Origin: Pseudomonas allokribbensis
GTDB lineage: Bacteria; Pseudomonadota; Gammaproteobacteria; Pseudomonadales; Pseudomonadaceae
DNA length: 64,000 nt
Direction of reading: 5' to 3'
Assembly: GCF_014863605.1 (NCBI RefSeq)
Contig: NZ_CP062252.1
Location: 372,001 to 436,000 of the forward strand
Shown here: piece by piece, positions 5,712 to 63,882 of the stretch
How the letters are laid out: every line of letters starts with the position of its first letter
How positions within the stretch are numbered: position 1 is the first letter of the stretch
Notes under the pieces: model-generated
Databases searched by the model: none
What the model was told of the DNA's origin: nothing
Seen by the model: only the letters and a program-made list of their open reading frames with translations
Program-made: the position numbers and the translations under genes

Positions 5712-6770
5712 TTAATCATCCGGCTGATCAATCAAGCGTTCTTCCAGCAGCGTGTGTTCCCGGTTCAGCTCCGCTCGTAATTCCTCCTCGCTCGGCAGCA
5801 CCAGTTTGTAGCTGCTGGCGAACAGTTGTTCATTGCCCTTGAGGATTGTGTAGCGCGCAACCGATTCATTTTGTTGTGCACAGAGAATGATCCCCACCGT
5901 AGGCCCGTCGCCCTCACTGCGTTTCAGGTCGTCGTACATGCGTATGTACATGTCCATCTGTCCCACGTCCCGAGCGCTGAGTTTGCCGCGCTTCAGATCC
6001 AGGATGACGAAGCATTTGAGCAGATAGTTGTAGAACACCAGGTCGATGTAAAAATCATCGTCTCCAGCACTGATGCGTTGCTGACGGCCGACAAAAGCGA
6101 AGCCCTTGCCCAGTTCGAGGAGAAAACCCTGGAGCTGATCGATCAAGGCCTGTTCCAGTTCTGACTCCTGAAGCTTGCCCGGTGATGGCAGGCCGAGAAA
6201 TTCCAGAAGGACGGGGTCGCGGATGAATTCCCGGGGATTGCTTTTCATCGCGGCAATGTTGGTCGCTGCCTCTGCATAGACGTCGGTTCTGTCTCGGCTC
6301 ATCAACAGACGTTCGTAGTAGAGCGTGTTGATCTGGCGATCCAGGGCGCGGCTTGACCAGTTTTGCGTGGCGGCTTCGTTCATGTACCACTGGCGGGCTG
6401 ATTCGCTTTCTATCCCCAATAGCTTGCGATAGTGGGTCCAGCTCAATTCGTGACGCAGTGCGTCACGAATTGGAAATGCCTGATAAAACAAACGCATGTA
6501 GCGAAGGTTTGAAGAATCGAAGCCTTTCCCAAAGTCCGCAGTCAGTTCTTTTGCCAACGTAGCCAGAAGTTGTTTTCCATACCCCGCCCGTCGGGCTCCC
6601 TGTTGTTCGAACTCGACAATATGTCGCCCGATCTGCCAGCAGGTCTGGACCTGAATCGTGTCGACCGTTCGCAGCACTTTCTGCCGCGCCTGGCGTATCA
6701 GGTCACCCAGATCGCCCAACAGCGAATCGAATTTTGGATCTTGCGTATCAGCAGGTTCAAGTTGGCTCAT
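5712..6770 (-). CDS. YhcG-family PDDEXK nuclease domain protein (DUF1016)
   Basis: The 352-residue protein matches the YhcG/DUF1016 family. The N-terminal half (QARQKVLRTVDTIQVQTCWQ through ELSWTHYRKLL) is the helical DUF1016 domain. The C-terminal half has a PD-(D/E)xK nuclease core visible as DDDFYIDLVFYN, then FVILDLKRGKLSARDVGQMD, giving the D...D-x-K arrangement. Such proteins are patchily distributed and often occur near restriction-modification or other defence genes, but no partner is visible here. The start chosen is the ATG at 6770, preceded by GGAAG six bases upstream; a GTG at 6821 would add 17 residues. By eye the gene is less GC-rich than its neighbours, consistent with horizontal acquisition. 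Confidence 0.85.
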   Translation of the reverse strand: MSQLEPADTQDPKFDSLLGDLGDLIRQARQKVLRTVDTIQVQTCWQIGRHIVEFEQQGARRAGYGKQLLATLAKELTADFGKGFDSSNLRYMRLFYQAFPIRDALRHELSWTHYRKLLGIESESARQWYMNEAATQNWSSRALDRQINTLYYERLLMSRDRTDVYAEAATNIAAMKSNPREFIRDPVLLEFLGLPSPGKLQESELEQALIDQLQGFLLELGKGFAFVGRQQRISAGDDDFYIDLVFYNYLLKCFVILDLKRGKLSARDVGQMDMYIRMYDDLKRSEGDGPTVGIILCAQQNESVARYTILKGNEQLFASSYKLVLPSEEELRAELNREHTLLEERLIDQPDD

Positions 6771-7001
6771 CAGGTCTTCCGGCTCAGGAGAAACAGAAGC
6801 AAGAGCATGCCAATAACTCACGGACTGGCGATGCCGGCCGTGTCTGGCTCAAACGAAGGAAGGGGGGACGGGGTTTGCAAGATACGACCGACGAAGATAG
6901 CGATTGAGGAATACAACGCGTAGTCCTTTTCGTACCCGCTCCAAGTTCCAATCAATCTAAAACCCGTCCCGCTCAGCAAAATCTAAACAGGAGTAACGAT
7001 T

Positions 7002-7018
7002 GGGTTCTGCGAGAACCC
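7002..7018 (+). other. Leader hairpin just upstream of a start codon
   Basis: GGGTTCT-GCG-AGAACCC is a perfect 7-bp stem with a three-base loop ending one base before the GGAG Shine-Dalgarno-like sequence of the gene at 7032. There is no T-tract, so it is not an obvious terminator. It could influence translation initiation. Confidence 0.4.
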
Positions 7019-7031
7019 GGGAGTACTCATC

Positions 7032-7481
7032 ATGAAACGCGTCATTTCATTCATGCTGCCGGTCGCTGCAGTGGCTGTTCTGATGTTCCCGCTCATGGCG
7101 CAGGCGAGCAGCGCCGAGCCGATCGACAGTGCCGGTGTGCAAGTCCAGCAACAACAGCAAAACGGTATCAATTACCTGTCCGGAGGGATTGGCCTGGACG
7201 AGTCGCGAGCCATTCAGCAAGCCGCCGGCTACAACCTGCACATGACCTTCTCCGTAGGCGCACAAAATCTGTACACCTCGGACGTCGACCTGGTTGTCCA
7301 GAAAGCGACAGGACAACCGGTGCTGAACCTGAGTCAGATCGGGCCGCTGGTCTATGCGCAACTGCCGCCAGGCAAATACACCGTGGTTGCCACGCGCAAT
7401 GGTGAGGTGCGGCGGGACGTTGCCAATGTTGGCAGCGGCGGGGCAAGTAACCTGGTGTTCCATTGGGACTGGCATCAATAA
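7032..7481 (+). CDS. Small exported protein, hypothetical
   Basis: The 149-residue protein has a clear signal peptide (MKRVISFMLPVAAVAVLMF, cleavage after MAQA). A glutamine run (QVQQQQQNG) and a predicted beta-sandwich-like region follow: TSDVDLVVQKATGQPVLNLSQIG, then YAQLPPGKYTVVATRNGEV. The phrase LPPGKYTVVA resembles carboxypeptidase-regulatory-like or prealbumin-like folds of periplasmic proteins. It probably acts in the periplasm, but no enzyme motif is present. A GGAG motif precedes the ATG, and a 17-base hairpin sits directly before that. The gene appears monocistronic. Function unknown. Confidence 0.75.
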   Translation: MKRVISFMLPVAAVAVLMFPLMAQASSAEPIDSAGVQVQQQQQNGINYLSGGIGLDESRAIQQAAGYNLHMTFSVGAQNLYTSDVDLVVQKATGQPVLNLSQIGPLVYAQLPPGKYTVVATRNGEVRRDVANVGSGGASNLVFHWDWHQ

Positions 7482-7558
7482 GGCAGGCGAGGGCGGGGTT
7501 CGGCGGGCGATAGCCGGTACAATCCCGCCCTTCTTTTTTTGATTGCAAGGATTTGGCT

Positions 7559-54607: not shown

Positions 54608-56290
54608 GTGACTGACAACAACCGCACCAAATTCCGTGACGTTGAAATCCGCGCCGCCCGCGGCAACAAGCTGACCGCCAAGAGCTGGCTGACCGAAGCG
54701 CCGCTGCGCATGTTGATGAACAACCTCGACCCGGAAGTGGCCGAGAACCCGAAAGAGCTGGTGGTCTACGGTGGCATCGGCCGCGCTGCGCGCAACTGGG
54801 AGTGCTACGACAAGATCGTCGAAAGCCTGACCAACCTGAACGACGACGAAACCCTGCTGGTGCAGTCCGGCAAACCGGTCGGCGTGTTCAAGACCCACAG
54901 CAATGCGCCGCGCGTGCTGATCGCCAACTCCAACCTGGTGCCGCACTGGGCGACCTGGGAACACTTCAACGAACTCGACGCCAAGGGCCTGGCCATGTAC
55001 GGCCAGATGACCGCCGGCAGCTGGATCTACATCGGCAGCCAGGGCATCGTCCAGGGCACCTACGAAACCTTCGTCGAAGCCGGTCGCCAGCATTACAACT
55101 CCAACCTCAAGGGCCGCTGGGTCCTGACCGCCGGCCTCGGCGGCATGGGTGGCGCTCAGCCGCTGGCCGCGACCCTGGCCGGTGCCTGCTCGCTGAACAT
55201 TGAATGCCAGCAGGTGAGCATCGATTTCCGCCTGAAAAGCCGCTACGTCGACGAGCAAGCCAAAGACCTCGACGACGCCCTGGCGCGCATCACCAAATAC
55301 ACCAAAGAAGGCAAGGCGATCTCCATCGCGCTGCTGGGCAACGCTGCGGAAATCCTCCCGGAACTGGTTCGTCGCGGCGTGCGCCCGGACATGGTCACCG
55401 ACCAGACCAGCGCCCACGATCCGCTCAACGGCTACCTGCCGGCCGGCTGGACCTGGGACGAATACCGCGCCCGCGCCAAGACCGAACCGGCTGCGGTGAT
55501 CAAGGCTGCCAAGCAATCGATGGCCGTGCACGTCAAGGCGATGCTCGACTTCCAGAAGCAAGGCATCCCGACCTTCGACTACGGCAACAACATCCGTCAG
55601 ATGGCTCAGGAAGAGGGCGTGGAAAACGCCTTCGACTTCCCGGGTTTCGTTCCGGCCTACATCCGCCCGCTGTTCTGCCGTGGCATCGGCCCGTTCCGCT
55701 GGGCGGCGCTGTCGGGTGATCCGCAGGACATCTACAAGACCGACGCCAAGGTCAAAGAACTGATCCCGGACGACGCCCACCTGCACAACTGGCTGGACAT
55801 GGCCCGCGAGCGCATCAGCTTCCAGGGTCTGCCGGCACGCATCTGCTGGGTCGGCCTGGGCCAACGCGCCAAGCTCGGCCTGGCGTTCAACGAAATGGTC
55901 CGTCGTGGCGAGCTGTCGGCACCAATCGTGATCGGTCGCGACCACCTCGACTCCGGCTCGGTGTCCAGCCCGAACCGTGAAACCGAATCGATGCAGGATG
56001 GCTCCGATGCCGTCTCCGACTGGCCACTGCTCAACGCCCTGCTGAACACCGCGAGCGGCGCGACCTGGGTTTCGCTGCACCACGGTGGTGGCGTCGGCAT
56101 GGGCTTCTCGCAGCACTCGGGCATGGTGATCGTCTGCGACGGCACGGATGAAGCGGCCGAGCGTATCGCTCGTGTGCTGCACAACGACCCGGGCACCGGT
56201 GTGATGCGTCACGCCGACGCCGGTTACCAGATCGCCATCGACTGCGCCAAGGAGCAAGGGCTGAACCTGCCGATGATCACCGGTAAATAA
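54608..56290 (+). CDS. hutU: Urocanate hydratase HutU
   Basis: The 560-residue enzyme uses tightly bound NAD to turn urocanate into imidazolonepropionate. The GTG start precedes [20 protein letters not shown]; the NAD-binding [19 protein letters not shown] and active-site [35 protein letters not shown] and [17 protein letters not shown] (pieces) are all typical. First gene of the long operon running to hutI. Confidence 0.98.
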
Positions 56291-56370: not shown

Positions 56371-57843
56371 ATGGCTGGCAACACCGATCGTGCAAGCAAC
56401 AAACCGTTGATCGAAAAGCGTTCGATCGACTACATCCCGGAAGCGGAAAGACACGGTCGTCTATTCAGTCAGTTCACCCTGTGGATGGGTGCCAACCTGC
56501 AAATCACCGCAATCGTCACCGGGGCCTTGGCCGTGGTGCTGGGCGGCGATGTGTTCTGGTCGCTGATCGGTCTGTTGATCGGTCAACTGCTGGGCGGCGG
56601 TGTCATGGCGCTGCACGCGGCACAAGGTCCGAAGCTGGGCCTGCCGCAGATGATCTCCAGTCGTGTGCAGTTCGGGGTCTATGGCGCGGCGATTCCGATC
56701 GTGCTGGTGTGCCTGATGTACCTGGGTTTCACCGCGACCGGGACCGTGCTGTCGGGTCAGGCGCTGGGCCAGTTGTTTGGTGTCAGTGACACTGTCGGCA
56801 TCCTTCTTTTCGCCAGCGTCATCGTCGTGGTCACGGTGCTCGGCTATCGGGTGATCCACTGGATCGGCCGTATTGCCAGTGCCATTGGCGTGATTGCTTT
56901 TGTTTATCTGTTCAGCCGTCTGCTGAGTCAGGTGGACGTCGGCGCACTTCTGGAAATCCGCCACTTCAGCTGGAGCAGTTTCCTGCTGGCGGTGTCGCTG
57001 GCAGCGTCCTGGCAGATCGCCTTCGGCCCTTACGTGGCGGACTACTCGCGCTACCTGCCGAGCAAGGTTTCCTCGGTGAAAACCTTTTTCGCTGCCGGTG
57101 CCGGTTCGGTAATTGGCGCGCAGGTGGCGATGATCCTCGGCGTGTTCGCGGCGGCTTCGGCCAACGGCCAGTTCGCCGGTCATGAAGTGGCTTACATCGT
57201 CGGCCTGGGCGGGACCGGTGCCACCGCTGCGCTGCTGTATTTCAGCATCGCGTTCGGCAAGGTGACCATCTCCACCCTGAACTCCTACGGCAGCTTCATG
57301 TGCATCGCGACCATCATCAGCGGTTTCCGTGGTGACCTGAAAGTAACGCGCCTGCAGCGTCTGGTGTTCGTGCTGGTCATCGTGGGTGCGGCGACGCTGA
57401 TGGCGCTGCTCGGCCAGCACTCGTTCCTCGGGGCGTTCAAGTCTTTCATCCTGTTCCTGCTGGCGTTCTTCACGCCGTGGAGCGCGATCAACCTGGTGGA
57501 CTACTACTGCATCACCCGCGAGCGCTATGACGTACCGGCGCTGGCCGATCCGAACGGTCGCTACGGCCGCTGGAACCTCCTCGGTATCAGCGTCTACGTG
57601 TTCGGTGTGCTGGTGCAGCTGCCGTTCATTTCCACCAAGTTCTACACCGGTCCGCTGGTGGCCGCGCTGGGTGATGTGGATATCTCGTGGATCATCGGCC
57701 TGGTGTTGCCTGCCGCGCTGTACTACGTGTGCGCAAAGAAATGGCACGGCAGCGTGCCCGATCAACTGATTCTGCCGGTCGAGCAGAACAGCGTTGTACA
57801 ACCTAAAGCAAGCGGGGCCGGTCGCGCTGCGGCGCAGGCCTGA
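56371..57843 (+). CDS. hutT: NCS1-type permease, probable urocanate transporter
   Basis: The 490-residue protein is a twelve-helix member of the NCS1 cytosine/purine/allantoin permease family: FSQFTLWMGANLQITAIVTG, QMISSRVQFGVYGAAIPI, AASWQIAFGPYVADYSRYLP and FTPWSAINLVDYYCITR are characteristic. Its position inside the hut operon right after hutU points to urocanate or histidine. In SBW25 a transporter in the same position (hutTu) is assigned to urocanate uptake, which I use as the basis for the name. Confidence 0.85.
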   Translation: MAGNTDRASNKPLIEKRSIDYIPEAERHGRLFSQFTLWMGANLQITAIVTGALAVVLGGDVFWSLIGLLIGQLLGGGVMALHAAQGPKLGLPQMISSRVQFGVYGAAIPIVLVCLMYLGFTATGTVLSGQALGQLFGVSDTVGILLFASVIVVVTVLGYRVIHWIGRIASAIGVIAFVYLFSRLLSQVDVGALLEIRHFSWSSFLLAVSLAASWQIAFGPYVADYSRYLPSKVSSVKTFFAAGAGSVIGAQVAMILGVFAAASANGQFAGHEVAYIVGLGGTGATAALLYFSIAFGKVTISTLNSYGSFMCIATIISGFRGDLKVTRLQRLVFVLVIVGAATLMALLGQHSFLGAFKSFILFLLAFFTPWSAINLVDYYCITRERYDVPALADPNGRYGRWNLLGISVYVFGVLVQLPFISTKFYTGPLVAALGDVDISWIIGLVLPAALYYVCAKKWHGSVPDQLILPVEQNSVVQPKASGAGRAAAQA

Positions 57844-57913: not shown

Positions 57914-58882
57914 ATGAAATCGAACAAGACCCTGCTGACCACACTGCTGTCCATGGGCCTGCTGGCCAGTGCCGGCGCCACTCAGGCTGCCGGCTGGTGC
58001 GAATCCGGCAAACCGGTGAAATTCGCCGGCCTGAACTGGGAAAGCGCGATGTTGCTGACCGACGTGCTGCAAGTCGTGTTGGAGAAAGGTTACGACTGCA
58101 AGACCGACAGCCTGCCGGGCAACTCCATCACCATGGAAAACGCCCTGAGCAGCAACGATATTCAAGTGTTCGCCGAAGAGTGGGTCGGCCGCAGCGAGGT
58201 CTGGAACAAGGCCGAGAAGGCCGGCAAGGTCGTCGGTGTCGGCGCGCCGGTCGTCGGTGCGATTGAAGGCTGGTACGTGCCGCGCTACGTGATCGAAGGC
58301 GATGCCAAGCGCAAGATCGAAGCCAAGGCGCCGGACCTGAAAAACATCGCTGACCTGGGCAAATACTCGGCAATCTTCAAGGATGCCGAAGAGCCGTCCA
58401 AGGGCCGTTTCTACAACTGCCCTGCCGGCTGGACCTGCGAGCTGGACAACAGCGAAATGCTGAAAAGCTACGGCCTGGAAAGCACCTACACCAACTTCCG
58501 CCCGGGCACCGGCCCGGCGCTGGATGCGGCGGTGCTGTCGAGCTACAAGCGTGGCGAGCCGATCCTGTTCTACTACTGGTCGCCAACCCCGCTGATGGGC
58601 CAGATCGACGCCGTCAAACTGGAAGAGAAACCGGGCGTCGACAAGACCGTGACCATCAAGGTCGGCCTGTCCAAGACCTTCCACGAGCAAGCGCCGGAGC
58701 TGGTGGCCGTGCTGGAAAAGGTCAACCTGCCGATCGACCTGCTGAACCAGAACCTGGGTCGCATGACCAAGGAGCGGATCGAGTCGCCAAAACTGGCCAA
58801 GATCTTCCTGAAGGAACATCCTGAAGTCTGGCACGCATGGGTGAGCGACGACGCAGCCAAGAAAATCGACGCGGCCTTGTAG
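57914..58882 (+). CDS. hutX: ABC transporter substrate-binding protein, glycine-betaine/histidine type (HutX)
   Basis: The 322-residue protein has a signal peptide (MKSNKTLLTTLLSMGLLASA..TQA) and an OpuAC-type binding domain: VKFAGLNWESAMLLTDVLQV, SSNDIQVFAEEWVGRS, EPILFYYWSPTPLMGQID. AGGAG lies about 12 bases before the ATG. OpuAC-type proteins in hut operons of proteobacteria bind histidine. It is followed by the permease and ATPase genes. Confidence 0.88.
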   Translation: MKSNKTLLTTLLSMGLLASAGATQAAGWCESGKPVKFAGLNWESAMLLTDVLQVVLEKGYDCKTDSLPGNSITMENALSSNDIQVFAEEWVGRSEVWNKAEKAGKVVGVGAPVVGAIEGWYVPRYVIEGDAKRKIEAKAPDLKNIADLGKYSAIFKDAEEPSKGRFYNCPAGWTCELDNSEMLKSYGLESTYTNFRPGTGPALDAAVLSSYKRGEPILFYYWSPTPLMGQIDAVKLEEKPGVDKTVTIKVGLSKTFHEQAPELVAVLEKVNLPIDLLNQNLGRMTKERIESPKLAKIFLKEHPEVWHAWVSDDAAKKIDAAL

Positions 58883-58952: not shown

Positions 58953-59804
58953 ATGTTTCCCGAACGATTTACGTTTTCCATCGCCGACTGGGTCAACGGT
59001 TGGGTCGATGCGCTGGTCACCAACTACGGCGACGTGTTCCGCCATATCTCCGACACCCTGCTGTGGGCCATCGTCAACCTTGAAGGCCTGCTGCGCGCAG
59101 CACCGTGGTGGTTGATGCTGGCCATCGTCGCGGGCGTTGCCTGGCACGCCACGCGCAAAGTCGTGACCACCGCCGTGATCGTCGGTTTGCTGTTCCTGGT
59201 CGGCGCCGTCGGCCTGTGGGACAAACTGATGCAAACGCTGGCGCTGATGATGGTCGCCACGGTCATCTCGGTGCTGATCGGTGTGCCGCTGGGGATTCTC
59301 TCGGCGCGCAGCAATCGCCTGCGTTCGATCCTGATGCCGCTGCTCGACATCATGCAGACCATGCCCAGCTTCGTGTACCTGATTCCGGTGCTGATGCTGT
59401 TCGGCCTGGGCAAGGTGCCGGCGATTTTCGCCACCGTGATCTACGCAGCACCGCCGCTGATCCGTCTGACCGATCTGGGCATCCGCCAGGTCGACGGTGA
59501 AGTGATGGAAGCCATCAACGCCTTCGGCGCCAACCGCTGGCAGCAACTGTTCGGCGTGCAACTGCCGCTGGCCCTGCCGAGCATCATGGCCGGGATCAAC
59601 CAGACCACCATGATGGCCCTGTCGATGGTGGTGATTGCCTCGATGATCGGCGCCCGTGGCCTGGGTGAAGATGTGCTGGTGGGCATTCAGACCCTCAACG
59701 TCGGACGTGGTCTTGAAGCCGGTCTGGCGATCGTGATTCTCGCAGTGGTCATCGACCGCATTACCCAGGCGTATGGTCGGCCACGGCATGAGGTGAGCAA
59801 ATGA
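58953..59804 (+). CDS. hutW: ABC transporter permease, proline/glycine-betaine type (HutW)
   Basis: The 283-residue protein has about six transmembrane segments and the EAA loop EVMEAINAFGANRWQQLFGVQ (in part) followed by LPLALPSIMAGINQTTMMALS, which contacts the ATPase. It resembles ProW. The next gene starts within its last codon (ATGA overlap). Confidence 0.9.
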   Translation: MFPERFTFSIADWVNGWVDALVTNYGDVFRHISDTLLWAIVNLEGLLRAAPWWLMLAIVAGVAWHATRKVVTTAVIVGLLFLVGAVGLWDKLMQTLALMMVATVISVLIGVPLGILSARSNRLRSILMPLLDIMQTMPSFVYLIPVLMLFGLGKVPAIFATVIYAAPPLIRLTDLGIRQVDGEVMEAINAFGANRWQQLFGVQLPLALPSIMAGINQTTMMALSMVVIASMIGARGLGEDVLVGIQTLNVGRGLEAGLAIVILAVVIDRITQAYGRPRHEVSK

Positions 59805-60631
59805 ACAACGCAACCGTGAGCAAGATCGAAGTCAAAAACGTCTTCAAGATTTTCGGCAACCGCGCCAAGGACGCCCTGGCGATGGTCGGCCAGGGCAAGA
59901 CCAAGGATCAGGTGCTGAACGAAACCGGTTGCGTGGTCGGGGTCAACGACTTGTCCCTGAGCATCGGCACCGGCGAGATCTTCGTGATCATGGGCCTGTC
60001 CGGCTCCGGCAAATCCACGCTGGTGCGCCACTTCAATCGCCTGATCGACCCGACCAGCGGCGCGATCCTGGTGGACGGCGTGGACATCCTGCAATACGAC
60101 ATGGAAGCCCTGCGCGAATTTCGCCGGCACAAGATCAGCATGGTGTTCCAGAGCTTCGGCCTGCTGCCGCACAAGACCGTCCTCGACAACGTCGCCTACG
60201 GCCTGAAAGTGCGCGGCGAGACCAAGCAGCTGTGCGCCGAACGCGCACTGCACTGGATCAACACCGTGGGCCTCAAAGGCTACGAAAACAAATACCCGCA
60301 CCAGCTCTCCGGTGGCATGCGCCAGCGTGTCGGCCTGGCCCGCGCTCTGGCGGCGGACACCGACATCATCCTGATGGACGAAGCGTTCAGCGCTCTCGAT
60401 CCGCTGATCCGCGCCGAGATGCAGGATCAGTTGCTGGAGCTGCAAAAGACCCTGCACAAGACCATCGTCTTCATCACCCACGACCTCGACGAGGCCGTGC
60501 GCATCGGCAACCGCATCGCGATCCTCAAGGACGGCCGCCTGATCCAGGTCGGTACGCCGAAAGAGATCCTGCACTCGCCGGCGGATGAGTATGTCGACCG
60601 CTTCGTGCAGCGGCGGGCGGCGGTGGTTTGA
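59801..60631 (+). CDS. hutV: ABC transporter ATP-binding protein, ProV type (HutV)
   Basis: The 276-residue protein carries Walker A GLSGSGKSTL, Q-loop SMVFQSFGLLPH, signature LSGGMRQRVGLARAL, Walker B IILMDEAFSALDP and the switch His in FITHDLDEA. It lacks the C-terminal CBS pair of longer ProV proteins, so it is not expected to sense osmolarity. It completes the hutXWV transporter for histidine (or a related betaine-like solute). Confidence 0.92.
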   Translation: MNNATVSKIEVKNVFKIFGNRAKDALAMVGQGKTKDQVLNETGCVVGVNDLSLSIGTGEIFVIMGLSGSGKSTLVRHFNRLIDPTSGAILVDGVDILQYDMEALREFRRHKISMVFQSFGLLPHKTVLDNVAYGLKVRGETKQLCAERALHWINTVGLKGYENKYPHQLSGGMRQRVGLARALAADTDIILMDEAFSALDPLIRAEMQDQLLELQKTLHKTIVFITHDLDEAVRIGNRIAILKDGRLIQVGTPKEILHSPADEYVDRFVQRRAAVV

Positions 60632-60708: not shown

Positions 60709-62232
60709 ATGTCCCAGGCTGAAAAAATCGTTATCGCCGACGCCTCGATGCGTTGGCAGGATGTGGTCGCGGTAGCCCGTCACGGCGCGCAGTTCGAGCT
60801 GTCGGCCCAGACCTGGGCGCGCATCGAAAATGCTCAGGGCATCGTCCAGCGCATCGTTGCCAGCGGCGAACGTGCTTATGGCGTCAATACCGGGCTGGGC
60901 GGTTTGTCCAATGTCTCGCTGCAGGGCGAACAACTCAGCCAGCTGTCGCGCAACACCTTGCTCAGCCATGCCTGCGGCGTCGGCCCGGTGCTGGCCGACG
61001 AGCAGACCCGCGCCATCATGTGCGCTGCGATTCGCAATTACAGCCACGGCAAATCCGGGATTCATCGGCAAGTGGTCGAAGCGCTGCTGGCGCTACTCAA
61101 TCGCGGCATCACCCCGCAAGTGCCGTCCCAGGGTTCGGTGGGTTACCTGACCCACATGGCGCACATCGGTATCGCGCTGCTGGGTGTCGGTAACGTCAGC
61201 TATCGCGGGCAGGTTGTCTCTGCGCAGCAAGCGCTGGCCGAAGAAGGCCTGCAACCGGTGCAACTCGGCGCGAAGGACGGTTTGTGCCTGGTCAATGGCA
61301 CGCCGTGCATGACCGGTCTCGGCTGCCTGGCCATCGCCGATGCCACGCGTCTGGTGCAATGGGCGGACGTGGTCGGTGCCATGAGTTTCGAAGCGCAGCG
61401 CGGCCAGATCGCCGCGTTCGACGCCGAGATCATCGCGCTCAAGCCGCATCCGGGCATGCAGCAGGTCGGCGTCAATCTGCGTGCGTTGCTCGATGGCAGC
61501 GAAGTGATTGCGACGAGCAAAGGCATTCGCACCCAGGATGCGCTGAGCATCCGTTCGATCCCGCAGGTGCATGGCGCCGCGCGCGATCAACTGGAACACG
61601 CGATCAAACAGATCGAAACCGAGCTCAACGGCTGCACCGACAACCCGTTGCTGCTGGGTACGCCGGACAACTTCCGGGTGATGTCCCAGGCCAACCCGCA
61701 CGGTCAATCGGTCGCGCTGGCGGCGGACTTGCTGGCCATCGCGATGGCCGAAATCGGCTCGATTGCCGAGCGGCGTCTGGACCGACTGATCAACCCGCAT
61801 GTCAGCGGTCTGCCGGCGTTCCTGGTGGCCAATCCGGGAGTGAACTCCGGGATGATGATCGTGCAATACGTCGCTGCGTCGCTGTGCGCGGAAAACCGCC
61901 AGTTGGCGCAACCGGCGGTGCTCGACAACTACGTCACTTCGGGCCTGCAGGAAGACCATCTGAGCATGGGTACCAACGCCGCGCTGAAGCTGCACCGCGC
62001 ACTGGAAAACTGCACGCAGATCCTCGCCATCGAGTACCTGCTGGCGGCTCAGGCCTTTGAATTCCTCAAGGAACAACGCTTCGGCGCCGGCACCGATGTG
62101 GCGTGGCGACTGCTGCGCGAGAAAGTCCCGGCCTACGATCAGGACCGCTGGCTGGCGCCGGATATCGCCGCTGCCGCGAGCGTGTTGAAGGACTCGGATT
62201 TGCTGCACAACGTACTACCGAATTTGCACTGA
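60709..62232 (+). CDS. hutH1: HAL/PAL-family protein HutH1, lacking the MIO triad
   Basis: The 507-residue protein is a clear paralogue of histidine ammonia-lyase: RAYGVNTGLGGLS (Tyr57), LLSHACGVG, LVNGTPCMTGL, TDNPLLLGTP, NPHGQSVALAADL and LQEDHLSMG are all family blocks. However the active-site loop reads GSVGYLTHMAHI (residues 142-153), where HutH2 has [14 protein letters not shown]; three residues are missing and the Ala-Ser-Gly that cyclises to MIO is absent. Also QDPYSLR of HutH2 is here QDALSIR. So it should lack lyase activity. The reading frame is intact and full length, implying selection for another role such as binding or regulation, or assembly with HutH2. Confidence 0.9.
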   Translation: MSQAEKIVIADASMRWQDVVAVARHGAQFELSAQTWARIENAQGIVQRIVASGERAYGVNTGLGGLSNVSLQGEQLSQLSRNTLLSHACGVGPVLADEQTRAIMCAAIRNYSHGKSGIHRQVVEALLALLNRGITPQVPSQGSVGYLTHMAHIGIALLGVGNVSYRGQVVSAQQALAEEGLQPVQLGAKDGLCLVNGTPCMTGLGCLAIADATRLVQWADVVGAMSFEAQRGQIAAFDAEIIALKPHPGMQQVGVNLRALLDGSEVIATSKGIRTQDALSIRSIPQVHGAARDQLEHAIKQIETELNGCTDNPLLLGTPDNFRVMSQANPHGQSVALAADLLAIAMAEIGSIAERRLDRLINPHVSGLPAFLVANPGVNSGMMIVQYVAASLCAENRQLAQPAVLDNYVTSGLQEDHLSMGTNAALKLHRALENCTQILAIEYLLAAQAFEFLKEQRFGAGTDVAWRLLREKVPAYDQDRWLAPDIAAAASVLKDSDLLHNVLPNLH

Positions 62233-62349: not shown

Positions 62350-63882
62350 ATGACTGCGCTGAACCTGATCCCCGGCCAACTGAGCCTGGCCCAACTGCGT
62401 GACGTCTACCAGAACCCGGTCAAACTGACTCTCGACAACAGCGCTGCTGCGCAGATCGAAGCCAGCGTCGCCTGCGTCGAGCAGATCCTCGCCGAGAACC
62501 GCACCGCCTACGGCATCAACACCGGTTTCGGCCTGCTGGCCTCGACCCGCATCGCCAGCGAAGACCTGGAAAATCTCCAGCGCTCGCTGGTGCTGTCCCA
62601 CGCCGCTGGCGTTGGTCAGCCGATCAGCGATGAGCTGGTGCGTTTGATCATGGTGCTCAAGGTCAACAGCCTGAGCCGTGGTTTCTCCGGCATCCGCCGC
62701 GTGGTGATCGATGCGCTGATCGCCCTGATCAATGCCGAGGTTTACCCGCACATTCCGTTGAAAGGTTCGGTCGGCGCATCCGGTGACCTGGCACCGCTGG
62801 CGCACATGTCGCTGGTACTGCTGGGCGAAGGCAAGGCGCGCTACAAGGGCGAGTGGATGGAAGCGACCGAGGCGCTGAAAGTCGCCGGTCTGACCCCGCT
62901 GACACTGGCCGCGAAAGAAGGTCTGGCGCTGCTCAATGGCACTCAGGTTTCTACTGCATTCGCGCTGCGCGGCCTGTTCGAAGGTGAAGACCTGTTTGCC
63001 GGTGCACTGGCGCTGGGCGGTCTGACGGTGGAAGCGGTGCTCGGTTCGCGTTCGCCGTTCGACGCACGCATCCACGCCGCCCGTGGCCAGAAAGGCCAGA
63101 TTGACACCGCTGCTGCTTACCGCGATCTGCTCGGCGAGCGCAGTGAAGTCTCCGATTCGCACCAGAACTGCGAAAAGGTTCAGGACCCGTACTCGCTGCG
63201 TTGCCAGCCGCAAGTCATGGGCGCCTGCCTGACTCAGTTCCGTCAGGCTGCCGAGGTGCTGGTGATCGAAGCCAACGCCGTGTCCGACAACCCATTGGTA
63301 TTCGCGGCTGAAGGCGACGTGATTTCCGGCGGTAACTTCCACGCCGAGCCAGTGGCCATGGCCGCTGACAACATGGCTTTGGCCATCGCCGAAATCGGTT
63401 CGCTGAGCGAACGTCGCATCTCGCTGATGATGGACAAACACATGTCGCAACTGCCGCCGTTCCTGGTGGCCAATGGCGGGGTGAACTCCGGTTTCATGAT
63501 TGCCCAAGTGACTGCGGCCGCACTGGCCAGCGAGAACAAGGCACTGGCCCATCCGCATTCGGTGGACAGCCTGCCAACCTCCGCCAACCAGGAAGACCAC
63601 GTGTCGATGGCTCCGGCTGCCGGCAAGCGGCTGTGGGAAATGGCCGAGAACACGCGCGGGATTCTCGCGGTGGAATGGCTGGCGGCGGCGCAAGGTCTGG
63701 ACCTGCGCAACGGCCTGAAGACCTCGACCAAACTGGAACAGGCCCGGGCGATTCTGCGTCGCGAAGTGCCGTTCTACGAGAAGGACCGCTTCTTTGCGCC
63801 GGACATCAATGCGGCGACCGAGCTGTTGGCTTCGCGCATTCTGACTGAACTGGTTCCGGCGAAACTGTTGCCGAGCCTTTAA
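62350..63882 (+). CDS. hutH2: Histidine ammonia-lyase HutH
   Basis: The 510-residue lyase removes ammonia from histidine to give urocanate. The MIO triad Ala143-Ser144-Gly145 is intact in [11 protein letters not shown], and [46 protein letters not shown] and NQEDHVSM complete the active site. AAAGGAG is eight bases before the ATG. It is the only hutH in the window with a complete active site, so it should carry the flux. Confidence 0.98.

Follow-up and report, generated by a model that had tools for sequence, protein, structure and literature searches.

Introduction

Loss of the serine of the 4-methylidene-imidazole-5-one (MIO) cofactor or of Tyr280 lowers the activity of histidine ammonia-lyase (HAL) by orders of magnitude. 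Mutation of other residues of the HAL pocket also costs orders of magnitude, according to the accessible part of PMC11432326. Ergothionase is a trimethylamine lyase with a HAL-like structure that has no MIO (PMC13405746, accessible part). In Pseudomonas fluorescens SBW25, a review describes hutH1 as dispensable for growth on histidine and as part, together with hutXWV, of an inserted module (PMC8871633, accessible part), and HutC regulons hold multiple HutH paralogues (PMC5343134, accessible part). Here we analyse hutH1 (60709..62232, plus strand), located in a 64,000-nucleotide stretch of the Pseudomonas allokribbensis genome (the window), which encodes a MIO-less member of the HAL fold and is predicted to be a hercynine (histidine betaine) trimethylamine-lyase. 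With a probability of roughly 58%, we propose that HutH1 is an active MIO-free lyase that would convert hercynine to trimethylamine and urocanate. The proposal is based on the sequence, its conservation and purifying selection, the predicted fold, the changes shared with ergothionase and the gene neighbourhood, from which we infer catalysis, the leaving group and hercynine as the substrate.

The S. meliloti histidase-like gene that follows hutXWV (locus L159), which we take to be the one named hutH2, occupies the same place in the module as HutH1. PA5093, annotated as a histidine/phenylalanine ammonia-lyase, is likely a HutH1 as well. The same gene is labelled hutG in the accessible part of PMC12772324, a label that may be mistaken. 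The SBW25 HutH1, found at the same place in the hutXWV module, and the S. meliloti gene were taken as members of the same family by gene position, and in the accessible parts of the sources both are described as histidases, with no remark that the MIO triad is absent. In the open-licence literature, judged from search listings, no publication was found on a hercynine lyase or on a HutH1 without MIO.

The MIO site is lost from an intact hutH1 gene

The hutH1 open reading frame encodes 507 amino acids and is free of internal stops. Residues 142–153, GSVGYLTHMAHI (61132..61167, plus strand), form the site of the lost MIO-forming Ala-Ser-Gly, where Tyr146 (codon 61144..61146) stands for the Ala-Ser-Gly-Asp of HAL, and the site is a net three residues shorter than in HutH2. 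The neighbouring hutH2 (62350..63882, plus strand) encodes an ordinary MIO-type HAL (TIGR01225, 729.1 bits) with the motifs GSVGASGDL and QDPYSLR; its stretch matching GSVGYLTHMAHI begins at residue 139 (base 62764), 1.63 kb beyond the HutH1 site, and the two proteins are about 40% identical. Where HutH2 has QDPYSLR, HutH1 has QDALSIR (base 61534), in which Leu279 (codon 61543..61545) is the equivalent of HAL Tyr280. A further difference is Tyr387 (codon 61867..61869), at a position held by Val in 18 HAL rows and by Lys in five of five ergothionase-type rows. HAL residues are numbered here as in P. putida HAL, and Tyr146, Leu279 and Tyr387 carry the HutH1 numbers; the roles given to the HAL residues come in part from PMC11432326 (accessible part). 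A sequence-only reading of this DNA had reported the loss of the triad, the three-residue deletion and the Tyr to Leu change in an intact gene in which no single frame change would restore the triad, and all of this stood: Ala-Ser-Gly (ASG) is not encoded at the site in any of the six frames, and the stop-free frame is under purifying selection.

Three homologue searches were made, one with HutH1 (best 120 of 7084 matches) and two with distant members that are 57% and 48% identical to it; the best 120 were listed from each, and the 353 different proteins were aligned. Since the lists hold best matches only, they show the character of the family and not the absence of intermediates. GSVGYLTHMAH, which includes the GSVGYLTHM picked out by the sequence-only reading, and QDALS(I/L)R were kept in 120/120 of the closest homologues (the best 120 of 7084). 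ASG occurs in none of the 353 listed proteins, all of which keep GS(V/A)GY, and in 0/31 aligned HutH1 members; Tyr was found at the Tyr146 position in 384/384 aligned HutH1-family rows. The Tyr280 position, which is Tyr in 18/18 HAL rows, is Leu in 352 of the 353 listed homologues and Met in one, and Tyr stands at the HAL Val site (Tyr387) in all of them. Positions marking the family against HAL include Tyr146, His149, Leu279, Tyr387, Arg359 and Gln233. Named holders of these homologues include Pseudomonas, Pantoea, Dickeya, Halomonas, Paracoccus, Salinivibrio and Rhizobium.

HutH1 was detected in 56 of 198 genomes of a family sample (E at most 1e-110), 7 of 194 of an order sample and, at a stricter cut, 20 of 349 of a phylum sample. 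These overlapping samples are taken as Pseudomonadaceae, Pseudomonadales and Pseudomonadota, as inferred from the named homologues. None of the 56 family-sample loci contains an internal stop, and dN/dS (NG86; 15 pairs, six genomes) was 0.052–0.151 for HutH1 and 0.024–0.080 for HutH2 in the same pairs (447 codons, loci cut). Thus, HutH1 is under purifying selection. The sequence-only reading had named a triad-less form confined to this isolate and under relaxed selection as a finding that would speak against its interpretation; the opposite was found, and the absence of ASG from 353/353 listed homologues rules out an isolate-specific loss. A frame error or a pseudogene is ruled out by the six-frame check, the stop-free family loci and dN/dS. 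That HutH1 is decaying, as the loss of two canonical motifs could suggest, has a close to negligible probability given the absence of stops, the low dN/dS and the motif kept in every listed homologue.

Among alphaproteobacterial loci (80 kept of 102), all 80 HutH1 proteins lack ASG, with Tyr at the MIO site, and have Leu in place of Tyr280 (79 by script, L183 by reading). L183 (Roseibium limicola, 6001-7545) is a diverged relative of HutH1 that shares 50% identity with the alphaproteobacterial search query; it reads GSLGYLSH at the MIO site and QPPLSLR at the second motif and, unlike the 353 listed homologues, has Ser at Asn195. It possibly represents a third substrate type.

The remaining HAL active site is conserved

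The predicted structure of HutH1 has the complete HAL fold. HutH1 matches the ergothionase structure 6s7j at 222 bits, a lower score than with true HALs such as 7tqr (359 bits) and 1b8f (328 bits). In the alignment and the predicted fold, HutH1 shares with HAL (P. putida 1b8f and HutH2) the fold and Tyr53, His83, Asn195, Gln277, Arg283, Met382 and Glu414, and it differs by the missing Ala-Ser-Gly, Tyr280 to Leu, Phe329 to Pro, Ala or Cys, and Val to Tyr387. Tyr53, Ser82, His83, Gln277, Arg283, Met382 and Glu414 are invariant in 353/353 listed homologues, Asn195 is kept in 352 with one gap, and at the Phe329 position 227 have Pro, 121 have Ala and 5 have Cys. Among the HAL active-site residues checked, the losses are thus confined to the MIO triad, Tyr280 and Phe329, a pattern not expected of an active site that has gone out of use.

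The sequence-only reading had stated that MIO is needed in all characterised members of this family and had concluded that HutH1 is a pseudoenzyme kept for another function, for example sensing of urocanate or histidine, partnership with HutH2 in the tetramer, or a non-lyase activity. The premise leaves out ergothionase, which is stated to lack MIO (PMC13405746, accessible part) and carries the same Tyr280 to Leu change. The conclusion would fit the loss of the MIO triad and Tyr280, the MIO-type HAL motif that accompanies HutH1 on 12 of 31 stretches, as in the window, and the reported dispensability of hutH1 on histidine (PMC8871633, accessible part). However, it is unsupported because the checked active-site residues other than the triad, Tyr280 and Phe329 stay conserved in the 353 listed homologues. 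Moreover, the partner transporter switches family across loci yet stays betaine-type, and no MIO-type HAL motif was seen within the other 19 stretches (one of them, L063, having a partial HAL-like match at its edge). We therefore regard a pseudoenzyme as improbable; as the earlier proposal also held, HutH1 is likely to do something other than deaminate histidine in the ordinary way.

HutH1 differs from ergothionase in the substrate pocket

For the comparison with ergothionase, the T. denticola enzyme (6s7j) was combined with four putative relatives. Thiourocanate hydratase was found above the cut-off in 5 of the 349 phylum-sample genomes, and 20 kb was fetched around each gene; four of the five stretches carry a MIO-less HAL homologue, and the fifth, L028, gave no lyase match. 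From their neighbourhood and residues, with 6s7j as the best solved relative for the one that was searched, these four are putative ergothionases. All five ergothionase-type rows lack ASG and have Leu at Tyr280, Lys at the position that is Val in HAL and Tyr387 in HutH1, Ser at Asn195 and Gly at Met382.

The fold, the loss of MIO and the Tyr280 to Leu change are common to HutH1 and ergothionase (T. denticola 6s7j/6s7q; Burkholderia sp. HME13), which also keeps Tyr53, His83, Arg283 and Glu414. The MIO site of ergothionase has a net deletion of one residue, compared with three in HutH1, and where ergothionase has Lys, Ser and Gly at the Tyr387, Asn195 and Met382 positions, HutH1 has Tyr, Asn and Met. 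In terms of sequence, HutH1 combines the imidazole pocket of HAL with two ergothionase changes on the amine side. The Lys of the ergothionase-type active site presumably binds sulfur, and the differences of the HutH1 pocket (Asn195, Met382 and Tyr for Lys) are as expected for a substrate without sulfur. The putative ergothionases lie near thiourocanate hydratase genes and on a separate branch of the tree from HutH1. Thiourocanate hydratase was above the cut-off in none of the 194 order-sample genomes, that of P. allokribbensis included, and three genomes (G234, G289 and G425; G and L numbers are our handles for genomes and loci) each carry HutH1 together with an ergothionase-type gene near thiourocanate hydratase, so the two enzymes should differ in substrate. 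On the residues and the missing thiourocanate hydratase, HutH1 as a plain ergothionase is held unlikely, and an ergothionase for ergothioneine or its oxidised forms is very improbable given that HutH1 is without the Lys of all five ergothionase-type rows, has HAL-type Asn195 and Met382 and coexists with the other gene in those three genomes.

In the tree, which is unrooted, drawn at the midpoint and has several long branches, HutH1 forms one clade (support 100/99) apart from HAL, and the ergothionase-type rows lie elsewhere. HAL groups with a PAL-like (phenylalanine ammonia-lyase-like) row (99/92) in this unrooted tree, so a single MIO loss is possible for HutH1 and ergothionase. The branch uniting HutH1 and the ergothionases (97/98) merely cuts off HAL and has no further meaning.

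Another MIO-less PF00221 protein (GSLGAADLAQLAQM) was observed at L092 3013-4551 (minus strand; genome G130), in the same hut region as HutH1. It has Leu at Tyr280, Lys as in ergothionase and Arg replacing His83, and its gene adjoins one for a binding protein of the OpuAC type and one that, by eye, resembles ornithine cyclodeaminase genes. It is perhaps a lyase for another betaine.

Betaine-type transporters are common beside HutH1

The gene order in the window is hutU, an NCS1 transporter gene, hutX, hutW, hutV, hutH1 and hutH2, all on the plus strand. The urocanase gene hutU (54608..56290) scored 1022.9 bits with TIGR01228, and 690.6 bits with the thiourocanate hydratase model, under its cut-off of 930. 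The NCS1-type transporter gene (56371..57843; Pfam, NCBIfam) occupies the place of hutTu (urocanate) in SBW25 (PMC8871633, accessible part). hutX (57914..58882), with the start set at the ATG preceding a signal-peptide-like stretch, encodes an OpuAC-type periplasmic binding protein of the glycine betaine family (PF04069); among solved structures its relatives bind glycine betaine or choline, and it reached 80.1 bits with the ProX model, under the cut-off of 215. The permease encoded by hutW (58953..59804) best matches choline and glycine betaine ABC (ATP-binding cassette) permeases, under the cut-offs, and the ATPase encoded by hutV (59801..60631) belongs to the betaine/proline/choline subfamily (TIGR01186, 369 bits, above the cut-off of 326.6).

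A betaine-type transporter stands beside HutH1 at 51 of the 56 family-sample loci. In 48 of these genomes hutH1 is preceded, at a distance of 1.7-2.1 kb and in the same orientation, by an orthologous hutX, and in three (G602, G679 and G663) a BCCT betaine transporter is found instead (L074 by Pfam; L075 and L076 by tblastn). A close form of this BCCT transporter (67% identity or more) occurs in 2 of the 194 order-sample genomes (G073 and G130), both times directly beside HutH1. Of 11 loci outside the family, three have a betaine-type system, namely one hutXWV and two BCCT transporters located upstream (L091 and L092). hutX and hutV are upstream of HutH1 in 50 of the 80 alphaproteobacterial loci, including those of S. 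meliloti, S. medicae and S. fredii; an OpuAC-type ABC system of another make was found at L175 (Agrobacterium vitis), L176 and L180 have an ATPase similar to that of L175 at about the same distance and may have an OpuAC-type system, and hutW-hutV are present at L169. A betaine-type transporter beside HutH1 is thus common, not universal. At many HutH1 loci, and at most of those in the family sample, the gene is part of a hut operon that also encodes urocanase, and this suggests that the product is urocanate. The EgtD-type methyltransferase family PF10017 had no match in 14 of 18 chosen HutH1 genomes, including the source genome (G679, G130, G421 and G491 have matches), and hercynine would therefore come mostly from outside.

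Several observations weigh against hercynine as the substrate of HutH1. At four family-sample loci (L070-L073) the upstream genes encode an ABC system of the SBP_bac_3 (polar amino acid) type or the ATPase of one (L070 and L072 called by Pfam, L071 and L073 by the ATPase only), and no transporter was recognised at L077, one of the 56. Outside the family, six of the 11 loci are preceded by a transporter of the amino acid type or by the ATPase of one (L089, L093 and L094 by Pfam), and no transporter was recognised upstream at L090 and L099. The remaining alphaproteobacterial loci comprise one with SBP_bac_3 and 29 classed as other, and 15 of these 29 have hutF directly upstream with no transporter found in the 5.2 kb examined. 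HutH1 was present on none of five fetched 16-kb stretches that carry hutXWV outside hut, and 11 genomes have hutX without HutH1. hutXWV is described as a histidine transporter (PMC8871633; as HutXYZ in PMC5343134; accessible parts). A grouping of HutH1 with the T. denticola ergothionase alone was rejected (p-AU 0.016), with long branches present. In S. meliloti, mutants of hutX and hutH2 reportedly grew about 30% more poorly with histidine as nitrogen source (work attributed to Boncompagni, 2000); if that hutH2 is the HutH1-type gene, this would point to a function that involves histidine itself.

The same S. meliloti report would agree with a slow or conditional HAL working without MIO, as would the HAL substrate residues kept in HutH1 and its score with the NCBI hutH equivalog model TIGR01225, which it clears narrowly (543.8 against a cut-off of 539.15, a margin under 5 bits). 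This narrow pass may be part of the reason why the family is named histidine ammonia-lyase. We give such an activity only a slight chance, as the loss of the MIO serine or Tyr280 is so costly to HAL and a true HAL is encoded alongside in the window. A possible but doubtful alternative is a MIO-free lyase for another histidine-like compound, such as histidine that is only partly N-methylated or a different betaine of the imidazole or aromatic kind; hercynine would then be no more than a side substrate. The intact active site would serve such an enzyme equally, transporter types differ between loci, and the OpuAC and BCCT families carry many betaines. On the other hand, the imidazole-pocket residues Ser82-His83, Met382 and Glu414 are invariant in all 353 listed homologues, and the many loci in urocanase-bearing hut operons point to urocanate as the product.

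Predicted reaction of HutH1

If HutH1 is a hercynine trimethylamine-lyase, hercynine (N-alpha-trimethylhistidine), its most likely substrate, would enter the cell through the betaine-type transporter encoded next to hutH1. The histidine-like imidazole would be held in the old HAL pocket by His83, Met382 and Asn195 and the carboxylate by Arg283, and the loss of MIO and Tyr280 would make room for the three methyl groups. A proton and the tertiary amine would then be removed from the quaternary alpha-ammonium substrate, with the elimination proceeding by general acid-base catalysis through the kept residues. The trimethylammonium group has a fixed positive charge and leaves well, so there would be no need for the electrophilic MIO, which activates a plain amino group. 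The reaction would yield trimethylamine and urocanate, the latter entering the pathway through HutU. Since ergothionase is already known, such a reaction is not categorically new.

The wider proposal, to which we give even odds, is that a separate family of MIO-free enzymes, the hercynine trimethylamine-lyases, is found among the genes named histidine ammonia-lyase in Pseudomonas, Pantoea, Dickeya, Halomonas, Sinorhizobium, Rhizobium and Agrobacterium. These enzymes would open the hut pathway to histidine betaine of fungal or actinobacterial origin by a new entry reaction to histidine catabolism, with release of trimethylamine and often with a betaine transporter of their own. If this holds, many genomes carry the same common misannotation (HutH1 being present in 56 of 198 in the family sample), a route of hercynine degradation has been found, and the second, dispensable 'histidase' beside hutXWV is explained. 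It would also mean an unrecognised source of trimethylamine for soil and plant bacteria, and an example of the HAL fold working without its cofactor when given a good leaving group.

Other HAL homologues of the source genome

The P. allokribbensis genome (G000) encodes one HutH1, HutH2, a copy 98% identical to HutH2 and a distant fourth homologue that keeps ASG. The copy belongs to a second hutU-hutH pair (G000:C1:6540608-6543834; L022 8609-11835, minus strand) that adjoins, by eye, the glmS/atp region and an amino acid permease-like gene, and the pair looks like a recent duplication or transfer. The distant homologue (L023 5556-7100, minus strand; near 507.6 kb) lies in a cluster whose genes, by eye, include some resembling those of acyltransferases and glycosyltransferases; it may be an aryl polyene cluster.
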